Positions 5,328 to 27,171 of a DNA stretch of 36,908 bases are shown here, piece after piece. Position 1 is the stretch's first letter. Each line of letters begins with the position of its first letter. A model generated the notes under the pieces. The model saw only the letters and a list, made by a program, of their open reading frames with translations, was not told where the DNA came from and did not search any database. The DNA is taken from contig NZ_SMMU01000032.1 of NCBI RefSeq assembly GCF_004339665.1, positions 1 to 36,908 of the forward strand, in the 5' to 3' direction. Made by a program: the position numbers and the translations under genes. This stretch comes from Azotobacter chroococcum (GTDB lineage Bacteria > Pseudomonadota > Gammaproteobacteria > Pseudomonadales > Pseudomonadaceae).

Positions 5328-6689
5328 TCAGCCCCGCCCGACCAGCCGGTCGGCCGTCGCGGCCAGCTCGCGCAGCGTCTCGCTCACCGTCACCGGATAG
5401 CCCGGCGCCGGCTCCAGGCCGCGCAGCGCCGGCGGCAGGCTGTCGAGCTGGCGGCGGGTGTACTCGCGCACCGCCTGCAGCGACGGCGAGGGCGCCAGGC
5501 GCCGGCCCTGGCGCATCACCGGCTGGATCAGCGCCAGCCCCTCGCCCGCCTCGCCCTCGAGCATCAGGCTGTCGCCGCAGCAGTGCCCGGCATCGTCGTA
5601 GCGCCGCCAGACCTGCTTGCGTCCCGGCCAGGTGGCCTTGCCTTCCGAGCGCTTGCGGCGCGGCTGGCCGGCGTATTCCTGCAGCTTGTAGGCGCAGTCC
5701 AGCGCCGGCACGTCGCTGGAGGTATCCAGATGGGTGCCGACGCCGAAGCCGTCGATCGGCGCACCTTCCACCATCAGCCGGTGGATCAGGTACTCGTCCA
5801 GGTTGCCGCTGGCGAACACGGTCACCCCGTTCAGGCCGCCGCCGTCGAGGATGGCGCGCACCCGCCGGGCATGCGCGCCGAGGTCGCCGCTGTCCAGGCG
5901 CACCCCCTGGATGCGGATGCCGGCCGCAGCCAGGCGCGGGGCCAGTTCGACCACCTTCTGCGCCGCCGCCTCGGTGTCGTAGGTGTCGATCAGCAGCACC
6001 ACCGACTGCGGCAGGCTGTGGGCGAAGTGCTCGAAGGCCTCCGCCTCGTCGAGGTGGGCCTGGACGAAGGAGTGCGCCATGGTCCCGGCCAGCGGAATGC
6101 CGAACTGCGCGCCGGCCAGCACCGTGGCGCTGGCGTGGAAGCCGGCCAGGTAGCCGGCGCGGGCGGCCAGCAGCCCGGCCTCGGCGCCGTGGGCGCGGCG
6201 CAGGCCGAAGTCCACCAGCCGCTTGTCCGGCGCCGCCAGCACCACCCGCGCCGCCTTGCTGGCGATCAGCGTCTGGAAGTGCAGCAGGTTGATCAGCCGC
6301 GACTCCACCAGCTGCGCCTCGGGCAGCGGCGCGGTGACGCGCAGGATCGGCTCGTCGGCGAAGAACGGCGTGCCTTCGGCCATCGCCTGCACCTCGCCGG
6401 AAAAGCGCAGCCCGGCCAGGTAGTCGAGAAAGACCGGGCTGAACAGGCCCAGCCCGCTCAGCCAGTCCAGCTCGGCGGGAGCGAAGTGCAGCTGCTCCAG
6501 GTAGTCGAGCGCCTGCTCCAGCCCGGCGGCCAGGTAGAAGTTGCGGCAGGCCGGCAGCTGGCGGGCGAAGAACTCGAACACCGCGGTGTCGAGCATGTCG
6601 CGCTCGACATAGCCCTGCAGCATGGTCAGCTGGTAGAGATCGGTGAGCAGCGCGCCGGGGACGGCGAGGCGGGGCGGATCGAGCGGCAT
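5328..6689 (-). CDS. pncB: Nicotinate phosphoribosyltransferase
   Basis: The 453-residue enzyme joins nicotinate to PRPP with ATP hydrolysis to give nicotinate mononucleotide, the committed step of the Preiss-Handler pathway. It has the N-terminal LLTDLYQLTMLQGY, the central GFHASATVLAGAQFGIPLAGTMAHSF with the phosphorylatable His region, VRLDSGDLGAHARRVRAIL, and FGVGTHLDTSSD, all typical. AGGAGA lies nine bases before ATG. It converges with pncA, so both halves of the salvage route are side by side but on opposite strands. Its last 304 bp exist a second time at 4842-5145. It starts 107 bp from the divergent CapA-like gene, leaving room for two promoters. Confidence 0.95.
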   Translation of the reverse strand: MPLDPPRLAVPGALLTDLYQLTMLQGYVERDMLDTAVFEFFARQLPACRNFYLAAGLEQALDYLEQLHFAPAELDWLSGLGLFSPVFLDYLAGLRFSGEVQAMAEGTPFFADEPILRVTAPLPEAQLVESRLINLLHFQTLIASKAARVVLAAPDKRLVDFGLRRAHGAEAGLLAARAGYLAGFHASATVLAGAQFGIPLAGTMAHSFVQAHLDEAEAFEHFAHSLPQSVVLLIDTYDTEAAAQKVVELAPRLAAAGIRIQGVRLDSGDLGAHARRVRAILDGGGLNGVTVFASGNLDEYLIHRLMVEGAPIDGFGVGTHLDTSSDVPALDCAYKLQEYAGQPRRKRSEGKATWPGRKQVWRRYDDAGHCCGDSLMLEGEAGEGLALIQPVMRQGRRLAPSPSLQAVREYTRRQLDSLPPALRGLEPAPGYPVTVSETLRELAATADRLVGRG

Positions 6690-6796
6690 GGGGGCGTTCT
6701 CCTGCGCAGATGAGGGCGGCCCGACGGCCGGTCGCCGCGGCCCGGCGGCGGCCGGGCCAGACTTGGAAGAGGATTCGCCACAGCCGGGAGACCCGC

Positions 6797-7909
6797 ATGT
6801 CCAGCACCAGGCTCTTTCTCGCCGGCGACCTGATGACCGCCCGCGGCATCGACCGCATCCTGCCGCATCCCGGCGATCCCCTCCTCCACGAAGCTTATGC
6901 CAGATACGCCGACGACTACGTGGAGCTGGCCGAACGGCGCAACGGCCCGATTCCCCGTCCGGCGGACTTCGCCTACGTCTGGGGCGTGGCCCTGGGCGAA
7001 CTCGAGCGGCGCCGCCCGGAGGTGCGCCTGGTCAACCTGGAAACCGCGGTGACGGCGCGCGGCTGGCCGGTGCCCAAGGGCATCAATTACCGGATGAACC
7101 CGGCCAACCTGCCGGTGCTGGCGGCGGCCGGCATCGACTGCTGCGTGCTGGCCAACAACCATGTGCTGGACTGGGGCGAGGAAGGCCTGCTCGAAACCCT
7201 GCACAGCCTCGACGCCGGCGGCCTGCGTCATACCGGCGCCGGGACGGATCTCAAGCGCGCCGAGGCGCCGGCGATCCTGCCGCTGGCCGACGGCGGGCGC
7301 CTCCTGGTGTTCGCCTTCGCCGGCCCGGACTGCGGCGTGCCGGCCCACTGGGCGGCCGGCGAGCAGCTGCCGGGCGTCGCCTTGCTCGAGGATCTCTCGC
7401 CGGCCACCCTGCAGCGGGTGGCGCGCTGCATCCGGGCGGCGAAGCGGCCCGGCGACCGGGTCGTGGTCGCCCTGCACTGGGGCGGCAACTGGGGCTTCAC
7501 CGTCCCCGCCGAGCAGCAGCGCTTCGCCCATGCGCTGATCGACGAGGCCGGCGTCGACCTGCTGCACGGCCACTCCTCGCACCACGTCAAGGGCATCGAG
7601 GTGTACCGCCAGCGGCTGATCCTCTACGGCTGCGGCGACCTGCTCGACGACTACGAGGGCATCGACGACCACGACCTCTGGCGCGGCGACCTGGGTCTGT
7701 TGTACTTCGCCGAACTGGACGCCGACGGCCGCCTGCAGGCGCTGGAGCTGGTGCCGACCCGCCAGTGGCGCTTCAGCCTCCACTACGCCGAAGGCAAGGA
7801 CCGCCAGTGGCTGCAGGACACCCTGAACCGCGAATCGGCGCGCTTCGGCTGCCACCTGCGCGACGGCCAGGGACGCGCCTTGCGCCTCGACTGGCCGGCG
7901 GCGGCCTGA
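6797..7909 (+). CDS. CapA family metallophosphatase-like protein
   Basis: The 370-residue protein belongs to the CapA/PgsA family (bacterial capsule synthesis proteins with a calcineurin-like fold). It has LFLAGDLMTARGID (metal-binding Asp), VNLETAVT (Asn-Leu-Glu), CCVLANNHVLDWGEEGL (Asn-Asn-His), VVVALHWGGNWG, and DLLHGHSSHHVKGIE (His cluster). There is no signal peptide or membrane anchor, unlike the Gram-positive poly-gamma-glutamate protein, and no capsule genes nearby. The ATG after GGGAG is chosen over an upstream in-frame ATG because homology begins there. In this lineage such stand-alone proteins have no proven role; a polymer-synthesis role should not be assumed. Confidence 0.8.
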   Translation: MSSTRLFLAGDLMTARGIDRILPHPGDPLLHEAYARYADDYVELAERRNGPIPRPADFAYVWGVALGELERRRPEVRLVNLETAVTARGWPVPKGINYRMNPANLPVLAAAGIDCCVLANNHVLDWGEEGLLETLHSLDAGGLRHTGAGTDLKRAEAPAILPLADGGRLLVFAFAGPDCGVPAHWAAGEQLPGVALLEDLSPATLQRVARCIRAAKRPGDRVVVALHWGGNWGFTVPAEQQRFAHALIDEAGVDLLHGHSSHHVKGIEVYRQRLILYGCGDLLDDYEGIDDHDLWRGDLGLLYFAELDADGRLQALELVPTRQWRFSLHYAEGKDRQWLQDTLNRESARFGCHLRDGQGRALRLDWPAAA

Positions 7910-7938
7910 GCCGGCGACGCCCACGGCCGGAGCAGCCC

Positions 7939-8001
7939 GTAGGGGGGTGCAACCCGCCGAACATGGCGTGGAACCGCGCCGAAATTGGCAGGTTGCACCC
8001 G
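7939..8001. repeat. GTAGGG-bounded palindromic element, copy C, left part (interrupted by IS)
   Basis: GTAGGGGGGTGCAACCCGCC, then GAACATGGCG and an end ...GGCAGGTTGCACCCG are the left 63 bp of a 69-bp element of the same family as 4668-4730 and 5150-5216. The last 6 bp (CCCTAC) are at 9380-9385, on the other side of the inserted element. Confidence 0.8.
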
Positions 8002-8017
8002 TATATGGACTCTCCCC

Positions 8018-8279
8018 GGTTTGCCAGTGAAACGCTGTGTCGACGACCGTGGTACGACTGCTTCCGTATATCCGGTTTTCGAGGGGGCTCTGTTTGCCCC
8101 GAGCCATGATGAATATCCGCTCATGTGCGCCTGATCGCCCTAGCGGCCTTGGTCACCAGAGGGCCTGGGGTGCAAGCAGGTTTCACACATGCCGGTTCGC
8201 CCGGTTCGTCATCGCTGCGTCACTGTGCAATCGTGGTGGACCTACCGCTCAACGTCTCCCCGGCTGTACAACCCGGGGC
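8018..8279 (-). ncRNA. Candidate guide (seekRNA/bridge RNA) region of the IS110-family element
   Basis: IS110-family elements encode a structured non-coding RNA that pairs with target and donor DNA; in the IS1111 group it lies after the transposase gene. This 262-bp stretch has that position and no convincing gene. Read on the minus strand it holds TTGCACCC (8168-8175), the complement of the right target side, and TAGGGCG (8136-8142), identical to the target across the insertion point; GGCC/GGCC and TGGT/ACCA pairings lie between them. ATATAC (8066-8071) matches the joined IS ends. These matches are short and could be partly chance; the exact RNA ends cannot be set. Confidence 0.4.
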
Positions 8280-9293
8280 TCAGCCTGGCCGATAACCCTC
8301 GCCCCGGCTGAGGATCGCCCAGACGATCCGGGCATTCTTGTTCGCCAGGGCAACCGTGGCGATGTTCGGGTTGCGCCGGCAGACCCGTTGCCGAAGCCAC
8401 TGACTGCGCCGGTCGGCCTTGTCCTGGCAGTGCCTGAGCACTGCCCGGGCGCCGTGAATCAGCAGGGTCCGCAAGTAGCTATCGCCCCGCTTGTTGATCG
8501 CCCCCAGGCGCTCCTTGCCACCGCTGGAGTGCTGGCGGGGAACCAGCCCCAGCCAGGCAGCGAACTGCCGGGCGCTGCTGAACTGGCGAGCATCGCCCAC
8601 GGCCGACACCAGGGCGGTGGCCGTGACCGGACCGATGCCCTCGACCTGCAGCAGGCGCCCCACGCGTTCGTCCTCGCGAGCCTGGCGCTGGATCATGTCG
8701 TCGAGACGGGACAACCGCGCATCGTGCTCGTCCAGCTCGCCGCTCAACTCCGCCAGCAGCTCGCGCATCTGCCCGGGCAAGCCGTTCTGCGCATCCAGAG
8801 CCGTCTGCGTCAGTCGGCGGGTGGCTGCAACGCCGTGCCGGGCTTCGACCAGGCCAAACTCGCCCAGCAGCCCGCGAATCTCGTTGACCAGCGCCGTCCG
8901 TGCCCGGATCAGGCGGCTCCTGATCCGGTGCAGCGCCTGGCTGGCCTGCTGCCCGGCGCTCTTCACCTCGACATAGCGCATGCTCGGTCGACTGGCCGCC
9001 TCACAGATCGCCTCGGCGTCATTGGCGTCGTTCTTGCCGCTCTTGACGTAGGGTTTGACGAACTGCGGTGCGATCAGACGCACCTCGTGCCCGAGGGTCC
9101 GCAGTTCTCGCGCCCAGTAATGGGCACTGCCACAGGCCTCCATCGCCACCGTGCAGGGCTCGAGTCGACGAAAGAAGTCCAGCATTTGCGAGCGCTTGAG
9201 CTGCTTGCGGCAGACCGCCTGCTCGTGGCTGTCGACGCCATGAAGCTGGAATACCTGCTTTGCCAAATCGACGCCTATCCGCTTGAGTTTCAT
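8280..9293 (-). CDS. IS110-family transposase (IS1111 group)
   Basis: The 337-residue recombinase has the N-terminal RuvC-like DEDD domain, beginning MKLKRIGVDLAKQVFQ with the first Asp at residue 9 and KSGKNDANDAEAICEAA further on. The C-terminal Transposase_20 domain has VEGIGPVTATALVSAVGD, then LGLVPRQHSSGGKERLGAINKRGDSYLRTLL, which contains the catalytic Ser. Length and both domains are complete, so it is probably active. GGAGGGAG lies a few bases before ATG. The 86-bp leader between the left end and ATG is too short for a guide RNA, which supports a 3' location for that RNA. The second copy at the window end has lost part of this gene. Confidence 0.95.
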   Translation of the reverse strand: MKLKRIGVDLAKQVFQLHGVDSHEQAVCRKQLKRSQMLDFFRRLEPCTVAMEACGSAHYWARELRTLGHEVRLIAPQFVKPYVKSGKNDANDAEAICEAASRPSMRYVEVKSAGQQASQALHRIRSRLIRARTALVNEIRGLLGEFGLVEARHGVAATRRLTQTALDAQNGLPGQMRELLAELSGELDEHDARLSRLDDMIQRQAREDERVGRLLQVEGIGPVTATALVSAVGDARQFSSARQFAAWLGLVPRQHSSGGKERLGAINKRGDSYLRTLLIHGARAVLRHCQDKADRRSQWLRQRVCRRNPNIATVALANKNARIVWAILSRGEGYRPG

Positions 9294-9379
9294 GGGGACT
9301 CCCTCCTCTGGTGACTGCTGTTTCCGGCAACTTCAGTCTGGCGCGTTGACGCCGTAGGAGGGGGGAGTCCATTTCATTG

Positions 9380-9385
9380 CCCTAC
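9380..9385. repeat. Palindromic element copy C, right end (6 bp)
   Basis: CCCTAC completes the element whose left part is 7939-8001. In the orientation of the IS it reads GTAGGG, the same six bases that precede the second IS copy at 36705-36710. Confidence 0.75.
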
Positions 9386-9552
9386 GTCGATTTTCCACCG
9401 GCGACGTCGCGACCAAGGCCCCGATTCGTGACTCTAGATCACAGGTGCTATGCCCGTGCCCCGGCTTAATGCCGCCGGCCACTTCTCCGATACTGCCTGC
9501 CATCCCGGCCGCCCCCGCTGCGGCGGCCCTGCCCCCCTGTTCGGAGAACCCC

Positions 9553-10137
9553 ATGAAGATCCTGCTGATCAACGGCGGCCAGCACTTCGCCCACTCGGGC
9601 GGACGCCTCAACGACACCCTGCACGAGGCGGCCCGCGCCCAGCTCGCCGAGCTGGGCCATGCGCTGGAGGAGACGCGTATCGCCGCCGGCTACGACATCG
9701 AGGCGGAAGTGCAGAAGATCCTCCGGGCCGACGCGCTGATCTACCAGATGCCCGGCTGGTGGATGGGCGCGCCCTGGACGGTGAAGAAGTACCTCGACGA
9801 GGTGTTCACCGCCGGCCACGGCAGCCTCTACGCCAACGACGGGCGCAGCCGCCAGGACCCCGGCCGCCACTACGGCAGCGGCGGCCTGCTGCAGGGCCGC
9901 CGCTACATGCTCTCGCTGACCTGGAACGCGCCGCAGGCCGCCTTCGACGCGCCGGACGAGTTCTTCGAGGGTCGCGGCGTGGACGGCGTCTACTTCCCCT
10001 TCCACAAGTCGCAGGAATTCCTCGGCATGCAGGGCCTGCCGACCTTCCTCGCCACCGACGTGATCAAGGCGCCCGACGTGGAGCGCGACATCCGCGCCTA
10101 CCAGGCGCATCTCTCCGAGGTGTTCGGCGCGGCCTGA
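9553..10137 (+). CDS. mdaB: NAD(P)H quinone oxidoreductase, MdaB-like
   Basis: The 194-residue flavodoxin-fold protein matches MdaB (modulator of drug activity B), an FAD-dependent reductase that takes quinones straight to quinols and limits oxidative stress. Typical sequence includes MKILLINGGQHFAHSGGRLN, DALIYQMPGWWMGAPWTVKKYLDEVF with the flavin-binding PGWWMG, and RRYMLSLTWNAPQAAFD. The start with GGAG upstream is preferred over an in-frame ATG 108 bp earlier, since the homology begins here. It lies downstream of the IS110-family element and converges with the archease gene. Family assignment is secure. Confidence 0.9.
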   Translation: MKILLINGGQHFAHSGGRLNDTLHEAARAQLAELGHALEETRIAAGYDIEAEVQKILRADALIYQMPGWWMGAPWTVKKYLDEVFTAGHGSLYANDGRSRQDPGRHYGSGGLLQGRRYMLSLTWNAPQAAFDAPDEFFEGRGVDGVYFPFHKSQEFLGMQGLPTFLATDVIKAPDVERDIRAYQAHLSEVFGAA

Positions 10138-10154
10138 AGACCGGGCGGCGCCGC

Positions 10155-10568
10155 TCAGACATCCACCACCGCCTGCGCCAGCCACTGGCCGTCGGCCTGC
10201 TGCGCCACCTTGAGTTCGCAGAACGACACCCCCTTGGCCTCCGCCGCCGGCTGGTGGCGCGCCGGCTCCAGCGCCTCGCCCCAGGCGGTGGCGTGCAGCC
10301 GGGAACCCTCGATGTCCAGCTCGAAGCGCGAGAACAGCAGGTGCCGGGTGGCCATCTCGAAGATCAGCGCATTCAGCCAGTCCACCAGCAGCAGCTCGAG
10401 GTCCGGCGCCTCGCAGTCGACCGCCACGGCCTCGCGCGGCGCCACCGTGGCCGGATCGCAGATCGCCGCGGTCAGGGCCGTCGCCGCCCCGGCGAAAGCC
10501 TCGGCCAGGCTCGCGCCGCTGCCGCGCACGCCGATGTCGGCTTCATGGGGAAAGGTCTGCCAGGGCAT
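10155..10568 (-). CDS. Archease (tRNA-ligase activator family)
   Basis: The 137-residue protein matches archease: it opens MPWQTFPHEADIGVRGSG, where the HEADIG Asp contributes to the metal site, has LLVDWLNALIFEMATRHLLFSRFEL in the middle, and ends VSFCELKV...LAQAVVDV. Archeases help the RNA ligase RtcB through guanylylation and multiple turnover, and bacterial ones usually sit beside rtcB. No rtcB is in this window; the neighbour is an alkyltransferase gene transcribed just before it, 48 bp apart. Its partner may be elsewhere in the genome. AGGAG lies 11 bases before ATG. Confidence 0.88.
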   Translation of the reverse strand: MPWQTFPHEADIGVRGSGASLAEAFAGAATALTAAICDPATVAPREAVAVDCEAPDLELLLVDWLNALIFEMATRHLLFSRFELDIEGSRLHATAWGEALEPARHQPAAEAKGVSFCELKVAQQADGQWLAQAVVDV

Positions 10569-19853: not shown

Positions 19854-20000
19854 CGGAGTCTCCCGTGGCGTGGCGCCCGGCCGTCGGCCTTGCCGGGTGC
19901 GGCGGAATTGGCAAGCATGGGGGCCGTCCCGCCCGGAGTCTGCCATGTCCCTGCCCGATCCGGACCTGCTGGTTGCCCTCAATAGGCCCTGATACACGGA

Positions 20001-20104
20001 ACGTCCACTCCTGGCCGCTTTGCCTACTACAACAACCGGCCGTTTCGGGTTGACTTCTATCCCTCGTCACCGACGACTGTCGACCCAAAGCGGAAGTTCG
20101 GCCG
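20001..20104. repeat. Degenerate intergenic repeat at the left edge of the island
   Basis: ACGTCCACTCCTGGCCGCTT at the start and GACCCAAAGCGGAAGTTCGG at the end are roughly inverted to each other, like repeats often seen between pseudomonad genes. Its first 33 bp (20008-20040) are similar to 26047-26081. No gene is seen in 19854-20225. Confidence 0.4.
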
Positions 20105-20225
20105 ACCAAAACCTATGACGGCTTTGCAACGGTTGCTGCTTGTCGCCGCCAATAGCGCAGCTCTCGTTTCGGAGCTCGAGGCAGTAAGCGAAGCGGGTCT
20201 GGCGAGGATTGGGAATCGTTGAGCC

Positions 20226-23200
20226 TCACAGATCGGCATCACGCAGCGCTTGCAACTGCTCCGCACTCGCTTTGTGGCGCTCGGTCATCGTTCCCGCGAC
20301 CTTCACTGTTCCAGCGTCCATCGTGTAGACGGTGGTGTGATAAACGCTGCCACCGAAGCCGCGGGAGATGCCGAAGTCCTGGCCCGCATACACATTCTTC
20401 TCGCCAGCGAGGACCCAGACCGGCTCGAGGCCAGCCTTCGCGAGCATGCTTAGGAAGTAGTCGCGCGAGACTATTGCGGCGCCGGAGCCGCGCTCTTTCA
20501 ATGAAGGGTCTTGCCACCTGAGTACTCCCTGGGCATCGGTGTACTCAGAGGTTCTCCCGTCGCGCAGGCGCAAGCCGATTAGCTTCATCAGACCGGAGGT
20601 GGGCAGGTGGAGACCGAGCGTCTCATCAATCGAGTTGTCGTTGTCGTTGCCCTCTGCATGCAACGTGGCCACTATGCCGGAATAGGGTGTATTGATGCCT
20701 GCGCCGGGGTTGGCTTCAAGTTCTATCTCCTTGGTATCGCGCCATCCGTGCTCGCCCAAGAAACACTCCAAACGCTCGTACTCCCCGAATCGGCTCACAT
20801 CGCCGCGATGCCTCTTAAGAATCTCTTGCGCCAGCTGCACGCCTGAGCCCAGCTTAGTAACCAAACAGGTGATGCGCGACCAAGCGTCCGCGTGATTGCG
20901 TCGCTCTTGACCAGGAACTTTCCAGCGGCGGAAGCCGTACGTCGTGAGCCACTTTTGGCCATCGTGACTGCACAAGTCGAGTTGCCCCACGTCGTTGCAA
21001 CGCCCGTCTTCGGAGCTCAGCCAAGCCAGTAGAACGTCCGTATCGCCGGAGGGAAGCTGCGGAGGTGACGGCGTCCACCAGGTGAGCGGTGTCGATTCCC
21101 AACCGGACTCGAGACTGTTCTGTAAAAGAAGAGATGGGTCCAGGTCTCTCTTCATGTCCCGTCCCACAGGGCCATACTCAAAGGCCCGCAGTAAGCCATC
21201 GTCCCCATACGAGCACACGGTCAGGTTGTCGACCAAGCGCGTGATGACTTCGGACAGCGCGATGTACTGGTACTTCTTCCCGACGCGCTCCACCCTGTGG
21301 TTCCCCATCCGGTCATGGGAGATGCCGCCGCCACGTTCGAACTTCTCGAAGAGCTCCTTGCTCCATCCGAGATTGTGGGCGCGCTCGCAAATCCAGCGCC
21401 TCAATGGCTCGCGGTCAACCTTCGGCGGGTGTCTGTCGTCGCTGTTCATCCGAGTCGCTTCTAGCATGTGCTGTTCGGCAAAGCTCGTGTACTCCGCAAG
21501 CTGCCCGGCGTTGAGTGAAGCCTTGAAAGCTTCATTCGCCTTCTCGAGTGAACCCCACAGTTGCGTCTCTTCCTCGTCCCTGCCCCAACCGCGGAAAGGC
21601 CTCTGGCGATAGTCTGTGGATGCTCTGAAGAGCGCGATATAGCACTCAAGTTGCTTTGGATCAGCCTTCTCTAGGAACGCCTGCAGCCAGTTTTCAAAGA
21701 GTTCCCGAGTACTCTTTCCCGCTAGAGCGCGCGGCATGTCAACAATCCCGTGCATCCATGCACTTAGGGTGTAGTTGCCAAAGTCTCCATGCTGATCCGT
21801 CGACGAACAGATGGAATCTCCGTATCCCTTCTCACGGTACTTTTCTAGGTCCTCAGAAGTGATGACCTCAAGCGGCCATGCTGAAGTGAACTTGGCTTCG
21901 CACGCATCGAGGTCAATCTCGGATGGAAGCTGTCCGACGTGCTGTGCGTAGAGAAGGATGCCGAGTGCGAAGTCTCGGGCGAGTAGGTTCAGTGGCGGCT
22001 GCCGGCCGTCCGCGAAGTGGCTTGCCCACACTGCGGAGGCAAGAGCCTTGCAACCGCCTCGGTCCGTGCCTTGCATCGCGGAGCCGTAGCAGGCCGCCAG
22101 CAGGCGTTCCGCGATGTATGCGTCGTTGACGTTGGCGAACTTGCAAATCAAGTCCGCGCCGTCACTCAGATTGTTGGACAGCAAGTTGGCTAAGGCCTTG
22201 GTTGCGCGATCGCGGACGGCGCGATTGCTCGTCGACAGGAACCAAGTCAGGACAAGCGCGGCAAGCCTTCTCCGCTCCTTGTCGACCTCATCGGCATCTA
22301 CCTGCCACGCCCAGTCGATGAGCGACTCGACTGCCCCTCCATCACTCAAGTCGTCTTCGGCCAGGAAGACGGACCATGTGGCGTCCCGCTGCGGCATTGA
22401 CAGTTGCCAGAGCTCGTCGTGGAGCCAATCGGCGTTGTATGGGTTGCCGGGCTCGGTGCTCACCAGTAGCAGCAAGCCGTACGGCGACTGACCCGTGCTA
22501 TCGCAGAGCTTCTTCACCCAATCCGCAGTCCGACTAGTGAAGGCCTGCGAAGCGCGCCAGGCCAAGGACGTCCTGAACGCATCGCAAAGGGTCTCGCTCT
22601 CCAAGGCGTCTTCAGGCAGCACATCGAACAGCTCAAGGCCGAACTGCTCCGGAATCTGCAAGGCAAGAGCTTCGACCAGGCCGGCAAACTGCCACGACTC
22701 GAAGAGCGAGAGGTAGCTTGCCAGCGGTTCCTTCTTGAACGAGCCTTGGACGTCGCTTCGGTCGACCTGTTCAAGGAGACGCTTGGCCCGCAGGTGGTCG
22801 GACAGCCGCTCGAACGTGAATCGAATGATTTCCTTCAAGGCACCCTCGTGCCATTCGACATCTTGGGTCAAGACGCCTTCCGAGAGGAAGGCCGTGAAGA
22901 GGCTCTTGTCGGTGAGGCCGCCAGACGGGTGTATGCCTTCTAGCAACTCGAAGGTGGACTCCAAAGACAGTGCGCCGGTGTCGCCTTGCTTGGCGCAGGC
23001 TTGGAGGAATGCGTTCAGCGCCTTGCGCGGAATGTTGAGCTGTGGAACGAGTTTGAGGTCGCTCTCAACCTTTCGCGCGACGGCGTCTAGGTAGAAGTCG
23101 AAGATTGTGCTCAGGCCATCCAAGCCCTTTGGAAGTTGCTTGAGATTCTCGGCGTCGAGGTATGTGCAGCAGGTTCTTAGGAATAGTGGGTTTTCGAATT

Positions 23201-24713
23201 CGCGCGCCAGGTTTGGAGAGCTCGGCCGAGCGATGCCGCGGCGGTCGAGGTATGCCTTGGCCGCGGCGCCGGACCGGCCTGAGAAGCCAGGGTGCTCGGT
23301 CCGCTCTAGGCCCTTCAACGGAAGGAGATGGACGTAGGTCTTGCGCACGGTCAGAGCGAGTGCGATGCGTGGGAACTTTCGTACAAGTGCTACAAAGCCC
23401 TGAAGACGTGTTTCCCACAGCGCGATGCCGTGCCTCTCATTCAGCGCGTCGACCGCAATCACAGCGCGGCAGCCGGCGGCTTCTGCTGCAGCGTCCAGCG
23501 CTCCAAGGAACTCGTCGGTCGTGACCTGTGACAGATCCAGCAGACCTCGGATCTGCTGCCACGGGTCCCCTTCCGTCAGACTGTTCGTGAGCACGAGAAT
23601 GAATGGCCGCTTGCGCTCCAGTTGCCTTTCGCCAAAGTCGGCCAGGAGGTGCGACTTTCCGATGCCTGCCGGCCCCGAAATCAACAACTCGTGCTTGTTG
23701 ATGACCCGCCACGGTCCGGATGCCAGTTCGCGGCTGACGCGCTGTACTGCCGAGTAAAGGTCAAACAGATCCTTTCGGGCGATGTGTATGTCCTTCTCTG
23801 GTTCCTTCTTTGCCAGCTCGGTCAAGGCTTCAACGATAGCGGAGAGTGCAGTAGCGCAGAAGGCGGTCCAGGGCTCAACAGCAACCAGTTCCTCTGGCAA
23901 CGCAGGCGGCTCTGTAAGGCTTCGCTGAAGCGGTGCGCAAGCCTCATGAACTCGCTCCGCAATCTGCTGTAGGCCTTCTCGCTCCAGGCTTACAGCCGCA
24001 CCGTCCAGGTTATACGTAACCTTGGCGGCCCATTCGTGTGGTGCCAGTAACATCTCAGGAGCGCGCGAAATGGACTGCAGCTGCGGCTGGATGGGCAGGT
24101 CAACGTGGCTCTCTGGGCTGTACCGTTCGCCAAGGTTGGAACGGACGATGTCGAACTTCTCTCGGAACCATGCTGAGCTGAAGCGGACGGCGTCGAACCA
24201 GTAGCAAGCACGTCCGGAGTACATGGGGTTGTCGCGACCGAGTCGCTCTTCAATGCTCGACGCGCTCCAAAGCTCGATGGTCAGCTCTCGCCTGTCGGCT
24301 GCCGCAGCTGCGACACTTTCGGTCCGCCACTTCTCAAAGCGCTGGACCTCGCTGTCCTTCTTTCCAGACCGGTTGTCCCTCAGGTCGATGGGCAGGCAGA
24401 CCACAAACCTGCGCAACTGAGGATGCGCTGCGAGGGCTCGGTTGAGGGAGTCATTCAAGTTCGAAACTTGGCCGCTCTCGAAGCCGTTGATGAAGTACTT
24501 CGCTTGCCAGCCAACTTCATGCCCATCAGGATAGGTCCTGTAGCACTCCAGGCCCTGGTCAGCGCCAGACCCTTTCCGGAAGAAGCTACTCCCCTCTGCC
24601 GGGTCCTCGAGGGCTGCCAGTTGGCAGCAGAGCTCTTCGAAGCCGCCCATCTGCGTGCCGCGGTGATTACGGATACGTGTGAAGTCCAATTTCTGCCCCA
24701 ACTTGACCTCCAT
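20226..24713 (-). CDS. Avs-like STAND NTPase with N-terminal Mrr-like nuclease domain (candidate anti-phage defence protein)
   Basis: This 1495-residue protein has three parts. Residues 24-155 look like an Mrr/PDDEXK nuclease: GADQGLECYR (Asp52) and VGWQAKYF (Gln70-x-Lys72), then RFVVCLPIDLRDN and LTIELWSASSIEERL. A STAND NTPase follows with Walker A GPAGIGKSHLL (347-357), PWQQIRGLLDL, EFLGALDAAAEAAGCRAVIAVDALNER as Walker B (418-427) and LALTVRKTY. The C-terminal 900 residues are mostly helical and likely form the sensor. AVAST proteins with this order (Avs4 type) sense phage proteins and degrade DNA. GC is visibly lower than the neighbours. The ATG shown lies at the IS630 insertion point. 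TTG at 24701, behind GGAGGT, or ATG at 24650 are plausible native starts. Confidence 0.82.
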   Translation of the reverse strand: MEVKLGQKLDFTRIRNHRGTQMGGFEELCCQLAALEDPAEGSSFFRKGSGADQGLECYRTYPDGHEVGWQAKYFINGFESGQVSNLNDSLNRALAAHPQLRRFVVCLPIDLRDNRSGKKDSEVQRFEKWRTESVAAAAADRRELTIELWSASSIEERLGRDNPMYSGRACYWFDAVRFSSAWFREKFDIVRSNLGERYSPESHVDLPIQPQLQSISRAPEMLLAPHEWAAKVTYNLDGAAVSLEREGLQQIAERVHEACAPLQRSLTEPPALPEELVAVEPWTAFCATALSAIVEALTELAKKEPEKDIHIARKDLFDLYSAVQRVSRELASGPWRVINKHELLISGPAGIGKSHLLADFGERQLERKRPFILVLTNSLTEGDPWQQIRGLLDLSQVTTDEFLGALDAAAEAAGCRAVIAVDALNERHGIALWETRLQGFVALVRKFPRIALALTVRKTYVHLLPLKGLERTEHPGFSGRSGAAAKAYLDRRGIARPSSPNLAREFENPLFLRTCCTYLDAENLKQLPKGLDGLSTIFDFYLDAVARKVESDLKLVPQLNIPRKALNAFLQACAKQGDTGALSLESTFELLEGIHPSGGLTDKSLFTAFLSEGVLTQDVEWHEGALKEIIRFTFERLSDHLRAKRLLEQVDRSDVQGSFKKEPLASYLSLFESWQFAGLVEALALQIPEQFGLELFDVLPEDALESETLCDAFRTSLAWRASQAFTSRTADWVKKLCDSTGQSPYGLLLLVSTEPGNPYNADWLHDELWQLSMPQRDATWSVFLAEDDLSDGGAVESLIDWAWQVDADEVDKERRRLAALVLTWFLSTSNRAVRDRATKALANLLSNNLSDGADLICKFANVNDAYIAERLLAACYGSAMQGTDRGGCKALASAVWASHFADGRQPPLNLLARDFALGILLYAQHVGQLPSEIDLDACEAKFTSAWPLEVITSEDLEKYREKGYGDSICSSTDQHGDFGNYTLSAWMHGIVDMPRALAGKSTRELFENWLQAFLEKADPKQLECYIALFRASTDYRQRPFRGWGRDEEETQLWGSLEKANEAFKASLNAGQLAEYTSFAEQHMLEATRMNSDDRHPPKVDREPLRRWICERAHNLGWSKELFEKFERGGGISHDRMGNHRVERVGKKYQYIALSEVITRLVDNLTVCSYGDDGLLRAFEYGPVGRDMKRDLDPSLLLQNSLESGWESTPLTWWTPSPPQLPSGDTDVLLAWLSSEDGRCNDVGQLDLCSHDGQKWLTTYGFRRWKVPGQERRNHADAWSRITCLVTKLGSGVQLAQEILKRHRGDVSRFGEYERLECFLGEHGWRDTKEIELEANPGAGINTPYSGIVATLHAEGNDNDNSIDETLGLHLPTSGLMKLIGLRLRDGRTSEYTDAQGVLRWQDPSLKERGSGAAIVSRDYFLSMLAKAGLEPVWVLAGEKNVYAGQDFGISRGFGGSVYHTTVYTMDAGTVKVAGTMTERHKASAEQLQALRDADL

Positions 24714-24731
24714 TTACTAAGCTTCTCGAAA

Positions 24732-24756
24732 GTATTGTCATATTGAGAGACAATAC
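24732..24756. promoter_or_regulatory. Perfect palindrome just before the IS630 transposase start
   Basis: GTATTGTC and GACAATAC flank a 9-base centre ATATTGAGA and end four bases before ATG. It could be an operator for the transposase's own helix-turn-helix domain, or an mRNA hairpin that hides the ribosome site. Confidence 0.4.
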
Positions 24757-24760
24757 CTCG

Positions 24761-25795
24761 ATGAAATGCAAACGAAACTCCGATGGTCGGGCAATCGACC
24801 ACCACTCCCTCCAGGTCATGCGTCAACAGGCGATCAAGGCCGTTCGCGAAGGGCAGACCGTCCAAAGCGTGGCGGCCGCCTTCGGCGTCAATATCCGCAG
24901 CGTCTTTCGCTGGCTGTCCGACTTCGCCAATGGCGGACAGAACGCCCTGCTCGCCAAGCCGGTTCCCGGACGTCCGCCCAGGATCAGTGCCGAGGAAATG
25001 CGCTGGCTGGCACAGGCCGTTCGGGACCACTCGCCGCTGCAATACCGCTTCGAATTCGGCCTGTGGACCCTGTCGCTGATTGCCGAACTGATCCGCCGCC
25101 AGTTCGGCAAGACGCTGTCACTGTCCGCCGTGAGCCGAGTCATGAAGCTGCTCGGCTTCACCGCGCAAAAACCCTTGTATCGCGCCTGGCAGCAGGATGC
25201 GGCGTTGGTGCGCCAGTGGGAAAACGAGACCTACCCGGCGATTCGGGCCGAGGCCCGTGCAGTGGGGGCAAGGATCTACTTCGCGGACGAGTCGGGCCTG
25301 CGCTCCGACTACCATGCCGGCACGACCTGGGCACCGCAGGGGGAAACGCCGGTGGTCGAGGTGACCGGCCGACGCTTCTCGGTGAACATGCTGTCGGCGG
25401 TCGGGACGCGCGGCGAGTTCCGCTTCATGCTGCACGACGGGACGGTGACGGCCAGCGTGTTCCGCGAGTTTCTCAAGCGCCTGCTGATCGGTGCCGAGCA
25501 GCCGGTCTTCGTGATCGTCGATGGCCATCCGGTGCACAAGGCCCGGCTGGTCAGGGCGTTCGTCGAAGAACAAGCGGGGCGCCTGGAGCTCTTCTATCTG
25601 CCGCCGTACTCGCCACAGCTGAACCCGGACGAGCAGGTCTGGGGGCACGTCAAGCGCAGTGTGTCCAGGCGTCTTGTGCAGAACCGGGAGGAAATGAAGA
25701 AGTTGGCCCTGGGCGCGCTGCGCAGAATCCAGAAGTTGCCGGAGTGGGTGAAATCGTTTTTCCGCCACCCGGACTGCCGATATACAGTAATATGA
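24761..25795 (+). CDS. IS630-family transposase
   Basis: The 344-residue transposase has an N-terminal helix-turn-helix (TVQSVAAAFGVNIRSVFRWLSDFANGG, about residues 34-58), a winged-helix stretch around RPPRISAEEMRWLA, and a DDE catalytic domain with YFADESGLR, FVIVDGHPVHKA and YSPQLNPDEQVWGHVK carrying the Asp, Asp and Glu. Length is normal and no frameshift is seen, so it may be active. The ATG at 24761 is preferred; an in-frame TTG 18 bases upstream lies in the palindrome. It is transcribed away from the Avs-like gene. Confidence 0.93.
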   Translation: MKCKRNSDGRAIDHHSLQVMRQQAIKAVREGQTVQSVAAAFGVNIRSVFRWLSDFANGGQNALLAKPVPGRPPRISAEEMRWLAQAVRDHSPLQYRFEFGLWTLSLIAELIRRQFGKTLSLSAVSRVMKLLGFTAQKPLYRAWQQDAALVRQWENETYPAIRAEARAVGARIYFADESGLRSDYHAGTTWAPQGETPVVEVTGRRFSVNMLSAVGTRGEFRFMLHDGTVTASVFREFLKRLLIGAEQPVFVIVDGHPVHKARLVRAFVEEQAGRLELFYLPPYSPQLNPDEQVWGHVKRSVSRRLVQNREEMKKLALGALRRIQKLPEWVKSFFRHPDCRYTVI

Positions 25796-25818
25796 CATTA
25801 CTTTTAAAAACATTAGTA

Positions 25819-26268
25819 AATGGCCAACCTGCTCGTCGGGTGAACTTTGGCCTTGAGCCACTTTACGGGACCGAATTCGAACCGTTCAAGGGCACTCGCC
25901 TGGCGGAGTGGGATGCTGGCGTGCGCGGACCGACAGTCCCATTCGTTCGTGCTCAGTGATTGCTCTGAAGGCGGGCTGTTAAAAGGCGAGAGTGAATGAC
26001 TGTAGCCACCTGAAGCGGTCAGTCAGTGCAATCCTCTGACTGGCTGCTCTTGGCCGCTTTTTGCCTCTCACAACGAGCCGGCTGAGGATGCGGAGCCTCG
26101 TCGGCGCATCCATCCTCCCGGTTATCCCCAGATGAAACGCTATTTTCGAGACTCTACTTCCTGCCGTAACAATCCTTCGCCGAGTTGACCCCGAAGCCCC
26201 GTTCCGCTCTCGGGCACTCTCGATCATCACGACGAAATCTTTCGCCCCCAAGCAGCGCGCCCTAATCC
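25819..26268. other. Gene-free stretch at the right edge of the island
   Basis: No convincing gene is seen in these 450 bp. Short open frames just after the IS (for example ...ALAWRSGMLACADRQSHSF) have stops nearby and no start context. At 26047-26081 lies CTCTTGGCCGCTTTTTGCCT and following bases, similar to 20008-20040 in the same orientation. The stretch may be the remains of the island edge or of degraded genes. Confidence 0.4.
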
Positions 26269-27171
26269 TCAGCCCCCTTCGCGCAGCAGGAACTGCCACA
26301 GCTCGCGCGCCTCGGGCAGCAGCGCCTCTTCCGACTTCACGCCGACCCACAGGGTGCGGCTGGCCCAGTCGTCGGTCAGCGGGATGGCGCGCAGGCCGTC
26401 CGCCAGGCGCTCGCCGCCCACCACCGCCTCGGGTACCACGCCGATCCCCAGCCCGGCCTCGACCATCCGGCTGATGGCGTCGAAGCTGCCCACCTGCATG
26501 CGCAGACGGAGGATGCGCTGCGCGGTCACCGCGGAGTCGATCAGCAGGCGCAGCAAGGAGGTGCCGTGGGCGAGGCTGATGTAGTCGTAGGCCAGGGTGT
26601 CGACGAAGGCGACCCTGCCGAACTTGGCCAGCGGGTGCCCGACCGGCACCAGCAGGACCAGCCGGCTCTGCCGGTAGGGACGCACATCCAGGGTCGGCGC
26701 CGGCACGTTGTCGGCGAACACCCCGACGTCGATCCGCCCGCTGTCCAGCGCCGCGACGATCTCCTCGCTCAGCCGCTCCTCCAGGCTGATGCGCAGCTGC
26801 GGCCGCTCGGCGAGGAAAGCCGCCAGGTCGTGCGGCAGGAACTGCAGCACCGCCGAGGTGTTGGCCCACAGCCGCAGGTGGCCGCGCACGCCCGTGGCGA
26901 ACTCGCCGATGTCGGCGGCCATGCGGTTGACGTTGTCGAGGATGGTGCGGGTGTGCTCCAGCAGCTCCTGGCCGGCCGGGGTCAGCTCGAGCCCGCGCGG
27001 CTGGCGGATGAACAGCGGGCAGTCGATGGTCTTTTCCAGATCGCAGATGCGCTTGCTCACCGCCGACAGGGTGAGGTGGGCGCGCTCGGCCGCCCGGGTC
27101 AGGCTGCCCAGCTCGGCAGCCAGCAGAAACACCCGCAGCGACTGCAGATCGAAATGGAGAGGATTGGTCAT
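26269..27171 (-). CDS. LysR-family transcriptional regulator
   Basis: The 300-residue regulator has an N-terminal winged helix-turn-helix (LQSLRVFLLAAELGSLTRAAERAHLTLSAVSKRICDLEKTIDCPLFIR, about residues 9-56) and a type-2 periplasmic-binding-like effector domain beginning about residue 93 (GHLRLWANTSAVLQFLP). Both are complete. It is transcribed divergently from the alginate-lyase gene across 372 bp, the usual arrangement for a LysR protein that controls its neighbour. The effector is unknown, and regulation of the lyase is inference from layout. Confidence 0.9.
   Translation of the reverse strand: MTNPLHFDLQSLRVFLLAAELGSLTRAAERAHLTLSAVSKRICDLEKTIDCPLFIRQPRGLELTPAGQELLEHTRTILDNVNRMAADIGEFATGVRGHLRLWANTSAVLQFLPHDLAAFLAERPQLRISLEERLSEEIVAALDSGRIDVGVFADNVPAPTLDVRPYRQSRLVLLVPVGHPLAKFGRVAFVDTLAYDYISLAHGTSLLRLLIDSAVTAQRILRLRMQVGSFDAISRMVEAGLGIGVVPEAVVGGERLADGLRAIPLTDDWASRTLWVGVKSEEALLPEARELWQFLLREGG

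Follow-up and report, generated by a model that had tools for sequence, protein, structure and literature searches.

The large minus-strand gene in the window (the whole 36,908-nucleotide stretch of Azotobacter chroococcum DNA analysed here) is, by its profile matches, an avs2 gene in PADLOC's sense, and its product very probably serves in anti-phage defence by sensing a phage component and acting as a nuclease. The reading frame at 20226-24713 is intact and open through 1495 codons, and the full protein matched six PADLOC families at E-values up to 10, every one of them Avs2. The best model, PDLC02166 (Avs2), scored 3154 bits and aligned residues 5-1495 of the ORF with positions 1-1498 of its 1498. 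The NCBIfam equivalog model of Avs2, NF041813, was matched with 764.9 bits (E = 1.9e-229) and its cut-off of 1000 bits, which is the naming threshold of one database, was not reached; because of this, we regard the gene as part of a divergent Avs2 subgroup, one that PADLOC models and the NCBI threshold leaves out. The sole PDB sequence match was 9o4e (named Avs2; one entry, four chains), at 3.9e-121 over residues 178-1463 with the single sequence and at 1.2e-221 with a nine-member profile (alignment A1). Compared with Avs2 (AVAST type 2) as known from PDLC02166 and 9o4e, the protein covers the PADLOC model end to end and has an NTPase and a sensor homologous to those of the solved protein; it differs in that the 9o4e alignment leaves out ORF residues 1-177 and in that its score is under the NF041813 cut-off. 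The preliminary description had proposed an Avs-like phage-defence STAND protein and a profile search for the closest Avs type; the former is strongly supported and the latter gives Avs2 over the full length. The gene is an ordinary defence gene that existing models describe well, and its subgroup occurs mainly in Pseudomonadota. It extends a known immune family by one member, from a soil bacterium and with its start corrected, and opens no new mechanism. The features of the locus are given in Table 1.

Table 1. Features of the avs2 locus, in window coordinates; residues are those of the 1495-aa ORF unless counted from the TTG.
Feature	Position	Strand	Basis
avs2 coding sequence from the probable TTG start, 1491 aa	20226..24701	-	PADLOC PDLC02166; Shine-Dalgarno and homologues for the start
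ATGGAGGTCAAG, containing the Shine-Dalgarno GGAGG; previously taken as the first four codons	24702..24713	-	
N-terminal nuclease-like domain, residues 1-186 from the TTG	24144..24701	-	Alignment A3; Avs4 matches
STAND NTPase part, residues 301-650	22764..23813	-	GxxGIGKS and DALNE
C-terminal sensor, residues 651-1495	20229..22763	-	Avs2 PADLOC models; 9o4e
IS630-family element, ~1.1 kb	24717..25816	+	Transposase 24743-25795; NF033545 249.7 bits
Transferred cassette: avs2, 158 bp downstream and about 240 bp upstream	20068..26060	.	Common to P. linyingensis, 93-95% DNA identity, IS excepted

The gene had been placed at 20226-24713, and the open frame across this span holds; its ATG at 24713, on the other hand, overlaps the avs2 ribosome-binding site, and the start is probably the TTG at 24701, four codons further inside, with which position 1 of the PDLC02166 model aligns. 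The product is therefore likely to have 1491 residues. In the homologous locus of Pseudomonas linyingensis (L002), AAAGGAGGTCAAG is followed by a TTG, which is the earliest start codon, and no ATG is present there. The TTG is also the earliest start in L004 and L007, where it is preceded by GGGAGG, and in L008, which lacks GGGAGG. The earliest starts in L009 and L010 are a GTG and an ATG, respectively, a few codons upstream, and L005 and L006 are uninformative on this point because their reading frames extend further up.

The avs2 gene has moved as a single-gene cassette. In a BLASTN comparison with the P. linyingensis locus, the match fell into two pieces, 20068-24714 (93.4%) and 25819-26060 (95.1%), which are directly adjoining in P. 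linyingensis, where the cassette is uninterrupted. The earlier remark that the gene stands alone fits this picture, given that the stretch common to the two species consists of avs2 with no second gene of note, and the mobile element said to lie beside it is an IS630 transposase gene directly upstream. The ends of the IS630 element, set from the break in the P. linyingensis match and from a reading of the sequence, are both flanked by TA (24715-24716 and 25817-25818). Copies at 96-98% identity occur in five Azotobacter plasmid records, and the same genome holds a copy at 93% across positions 94-1104 as well as a 306-base piece at 96%, a distribution that points to an Azotobacter-like host.

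The element lies 13-15 bp upstream of the TTG and splits the ribosome-binding site from the former upstream DNA. Since the gene is cut off in this way, its expression may have changed in the A. chroococcum strain, and the insertion may silence or rewire it. It is possible, though we doubt it, that avs2, although intact, is expressed poorly or not at all for want of its promoter, a situation compatible with an Avs2 defence role. The IS630 now sits between the Shine-Dalgarno and the roughly 240 bp of former upstream DNA, and a scan of 24600-26200 for one promoter type found no sigma-70-like site; however, only 0.3 such sites would be expected there by chance, the Shine-Dalgarno is intact and the frame is open. 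Insertion ends can, moreover, supply promoters.

The cassette site was compared across window positions 19945-20085 and 26041-26270. In congener G033 the match at the site is interrupted by genes that look by eye like transposase genes, and in congeners G017 and G044 the site appears to hold a LysR gene and an efflux-type operon, with further genes in G044. In the window, the opening codons of that LysR gene can still be recognised beside the cassette, at about 19945-19983. A repeat at the end of the cassette was considered as an insertion signal and rejected: a 19-bp pattern taken from the right end only, with up to 3 mismatches, was not commoner than the control in three genomes (11 vs 14, 10 vs 22 and 15 vs 23).

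The stretches GPAGIGKSHLL, VIAVDALNER and GADQGLE...GWQAKYF, on which the preliminary description relied, are all present in the ORF as quoted. GxxGIGKS and DALNE (Walker A and B) are invariant in the nine members of alignment A2, and AAA models matched the NTPase part at scores under the Pfam gathering scores. Searched alone, the NTPase part matched the six Avs2 models of the full-length search with E-values no worse than 3e-58, and three further models followed at 0.019-0.054. The sensor alone was covered almost throughout by those six and matched nothing else in PADLOC; Avs4 models of PADLOC were matched by neither part. The sensor had been called the least familiar part, one that might recognise a new target. 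This view finds no support, because the sensor half matches the six Avs2 models only. Its last third is nonetheless remote from the solved Avs2, with a match to 9o4e at 9.6e-17 by single sequence.

The whole Avs2 protein is under overall purifying selection, with a dN/dS of 0.20 against P. linyingensis and 0.14 against a Rhodocyclaceae MAG; the comparisons with Variovorax (0.17 over 1198 codons) and with P. neustonica (0.15 over 709 codons) are both partial. The linker (residues 187-330) has a dN/dS of 0.60 against P. linyingensis, based on few changes. Divergence is uneven along the gene. When 20229-24701 of the window is compared with 6010-10485 of the P. linyingensis locus, third-position divergence shifts near codon 344 from 4.1% to 14.0% (about 3.4-fold), and none of 2000 permutations attained the observed likelihood ratio. 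Recombination between the two halves, effector and sensor, would account for this shift, and uneven mutation or selection could do so as well. Together with the upstream insertion, it makes the locus a modest case study of mobility and change in single-gene sensors.

As to how the protein would act, PMC12931631 and PMC12724215 describe Avs1-4 as working via nuclease effectors, with the terminase large subunit sensed by Avs1-3 and the portal by Avs4. In PMC12724215, a Klebsiella Avs2 also appeared to bind or respond to Ksap1, and ATP-dependent trimerisation is described; in contrast to such trimers, PDB entries 9o4e (Avs2) and 8dgf (Avs4) each comprise four chains with the same sequence. By analogy with the family, the sensor of the A. 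chroococcum protein would bind the large terminase subunit of a phage, and possibly other phage proteins too, upon which ATP-bound protomers would assemble and the N-terminal nuclease would degrade DNA, aborting the infection. We consider it likely that terminase is the main trigger. Among the proposed steps this target is the least certain, because in its last third the sensor is only distantly similar to the solved Avs2. The protein could be an Avs2 by descent whose sensor recognises mainly some other phage protein, which would agree with the missed NCBIfam cut-off, with the distance of the last third from 9o4e, with the apparent binding of Ksap1 by the Klebsiella Avs2 (PMC12724215) and with the greater divergence of the sensor half than of the effector half between close relatives. 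We nevertheless hold such a shift to be improbable, given that six Avs2 models align along almost all of the sensor and models of other Avs types do not match it.

The N-terminal effector keeps an intact active-site motif and is a predicted nuclease. E22, D48, E52 and Q66-A-K68 are invariant in all ten members of alignment A3, an E...E...QxK pattern whose order we take to be like that of PD-(D/E)XK nucleases. No Pfam family matched this domain of the window protein, and a RepSA match at 0.037 in one of the ten N-terminal domains was judged to be due to chance. Against the PDB, the domain matched no chain by single sequence and its profile left the solved Avs2 chain unmatched; the profile reached Avs4 8dgf (E 0.032), and the next match was an unrelated kinase (1.2). 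PADLOC Avs4 models were matched by nine of the ten N-terminal domains (best 1.6e-4, the window's own 0.0041). An hhalign comparison with the N-terminus of L038, the one among eight Avs4-model matches that starts at model position 1, gave a probability of 83.7 (E 8e-6), whereas none of 20 column shuffles exceeded 2.0; L038 retains the second E and QAK, and D48 is aligned to a gap. Outside Avs2, then, the nearest relatives of the domain are by these comparisons the N-termini of Avs4. Of the Mrr-like nuclease originally proposed, the nuclease part survives in the form of an Avs4-type domain, and the classical Mrr catalytic domain (PF04471) went undetected, a profile of 20 Mrr_cat proteins giving an hhalign probability of 1.5, the same value as the highest among 20 shuffles.

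LmuA was weakly matched by three of the ten N-terminal domains (best 9.2e-5) and JetD by one in PADLOC. Lamassu LmuA, which shares this likeness, is one that we group with the Cap4-type nucleases; Cap4 itself (PF14130) was tried and rejected, as two of its proteins gave an hhalign probability of 0.1, under the best shuffle of 3.0, and the domain differs from Cap4-type nucleases in this respect. The likeness to Avs4 (8dgf, PDLC02169) lies in a related N-terminal nuclease domain, the GWQxK stretch included. The difference is that the NTPase and sensor of avs2 match no Avs4 model, and that Avs4 senses the portal according to PMC12724215. The combination of this nuclease with an Avs2 sensor is common within Avs2 and is not new, since four of the six Avs2 models match the N-terminus. 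A divergent Avs2 subgroup in which an Avs4-type nuclease was joined to an Avs2 sensor, the target has shifted and effectors and sensors continue to be exchanged could also be envisaged, and we give it still less credence than a change of target alone. The effectors of Avs4-like proteins vary too, judging from six Avs4-model matches in family genomes (L039-L044) that start at model positions 163-192 and whose N-termini look different by eye.

The distribution of avs2 is that of an accessory gene. Matches were found in 10 of 248 genomes of the family, that of A. chroococcum included: two copies at 92% and 86% identity (the latter incomplete), and others at 25-38%, several of them partial. None of the three other genomes of the genus gave a match, and the genome itself has no second match to the avs2 protein (E up to 0.001). 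In the species genome collection nine loci were found, in two Pseudomonas, Variovorax, Thauera, a Rhodocyclaceae MAG, Undibacterium, Xanthomonas, Rhodoferax and a Flavobacteriales MAG. Among plasmids, in a search that may omit records of or near the A. chroococcum genome, 61 records matched, 41 of which cover at least 80% of the query, with a best identity of 64.4%; among phages there was one record, with 27% query coverage and 23.7% identity. The lower GC content noted earlier was confirmed, at about 0.595 across the gene compared with 0.65-0.75 in intervals touching neither the gene nor the IS, and third-position GC is 0.72 in avs2 compared with 0.81-0.95 in five neighbouring genes (the transposase included). 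The earlier suggestion of an accessory, horizontally acquired gene is well borne out by its rarity in the family, its absence from the three congeners and the cassette at 93% in P. linyingensis. STAND proteins have other roles in bacteria, but a housekeeping or signalling function outside phage defence is wholly improbable for this STAND ATPase in view of the full-length Avs2 match, this sparse distribution and the defence-type neighbours of some homologues; the conserved core location in the genus expected of a housekeeping gene was not found.

The clearest PADLOC matches among those neighbours were PDC-S36 in the P. linyingensis locus and IetS in L008; two genes of the former locus, which we labelled DUF262-like, matched the HEC-06, Orf5 and SspE models. 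Other matches (helicase, kinase, transposition) were less specific, and two were weak. Ten of 55 ORFs were compared with PADLOC, and because they were picked by eye the scan serves to illustrate the neighbourhoods and does not test for enrichment. Just upstream of avs2 in Pseudomonas neustonica (L006:414-4541) lies a gene for a 1375-aa protein with a weak PD-Lambda-4_A match (7.6e-5), the N-terminus of which looks helix-turn-helix-like by eye. The gene beside the Undibacterium Avs2 (L007:10772-15205) is possibly another large sensor-effector gene; its 1477-aa product matches LmuA weakly at the N-terminus (2.7e-6) and also shows weak similarity to Avs1b (1.2e-7).
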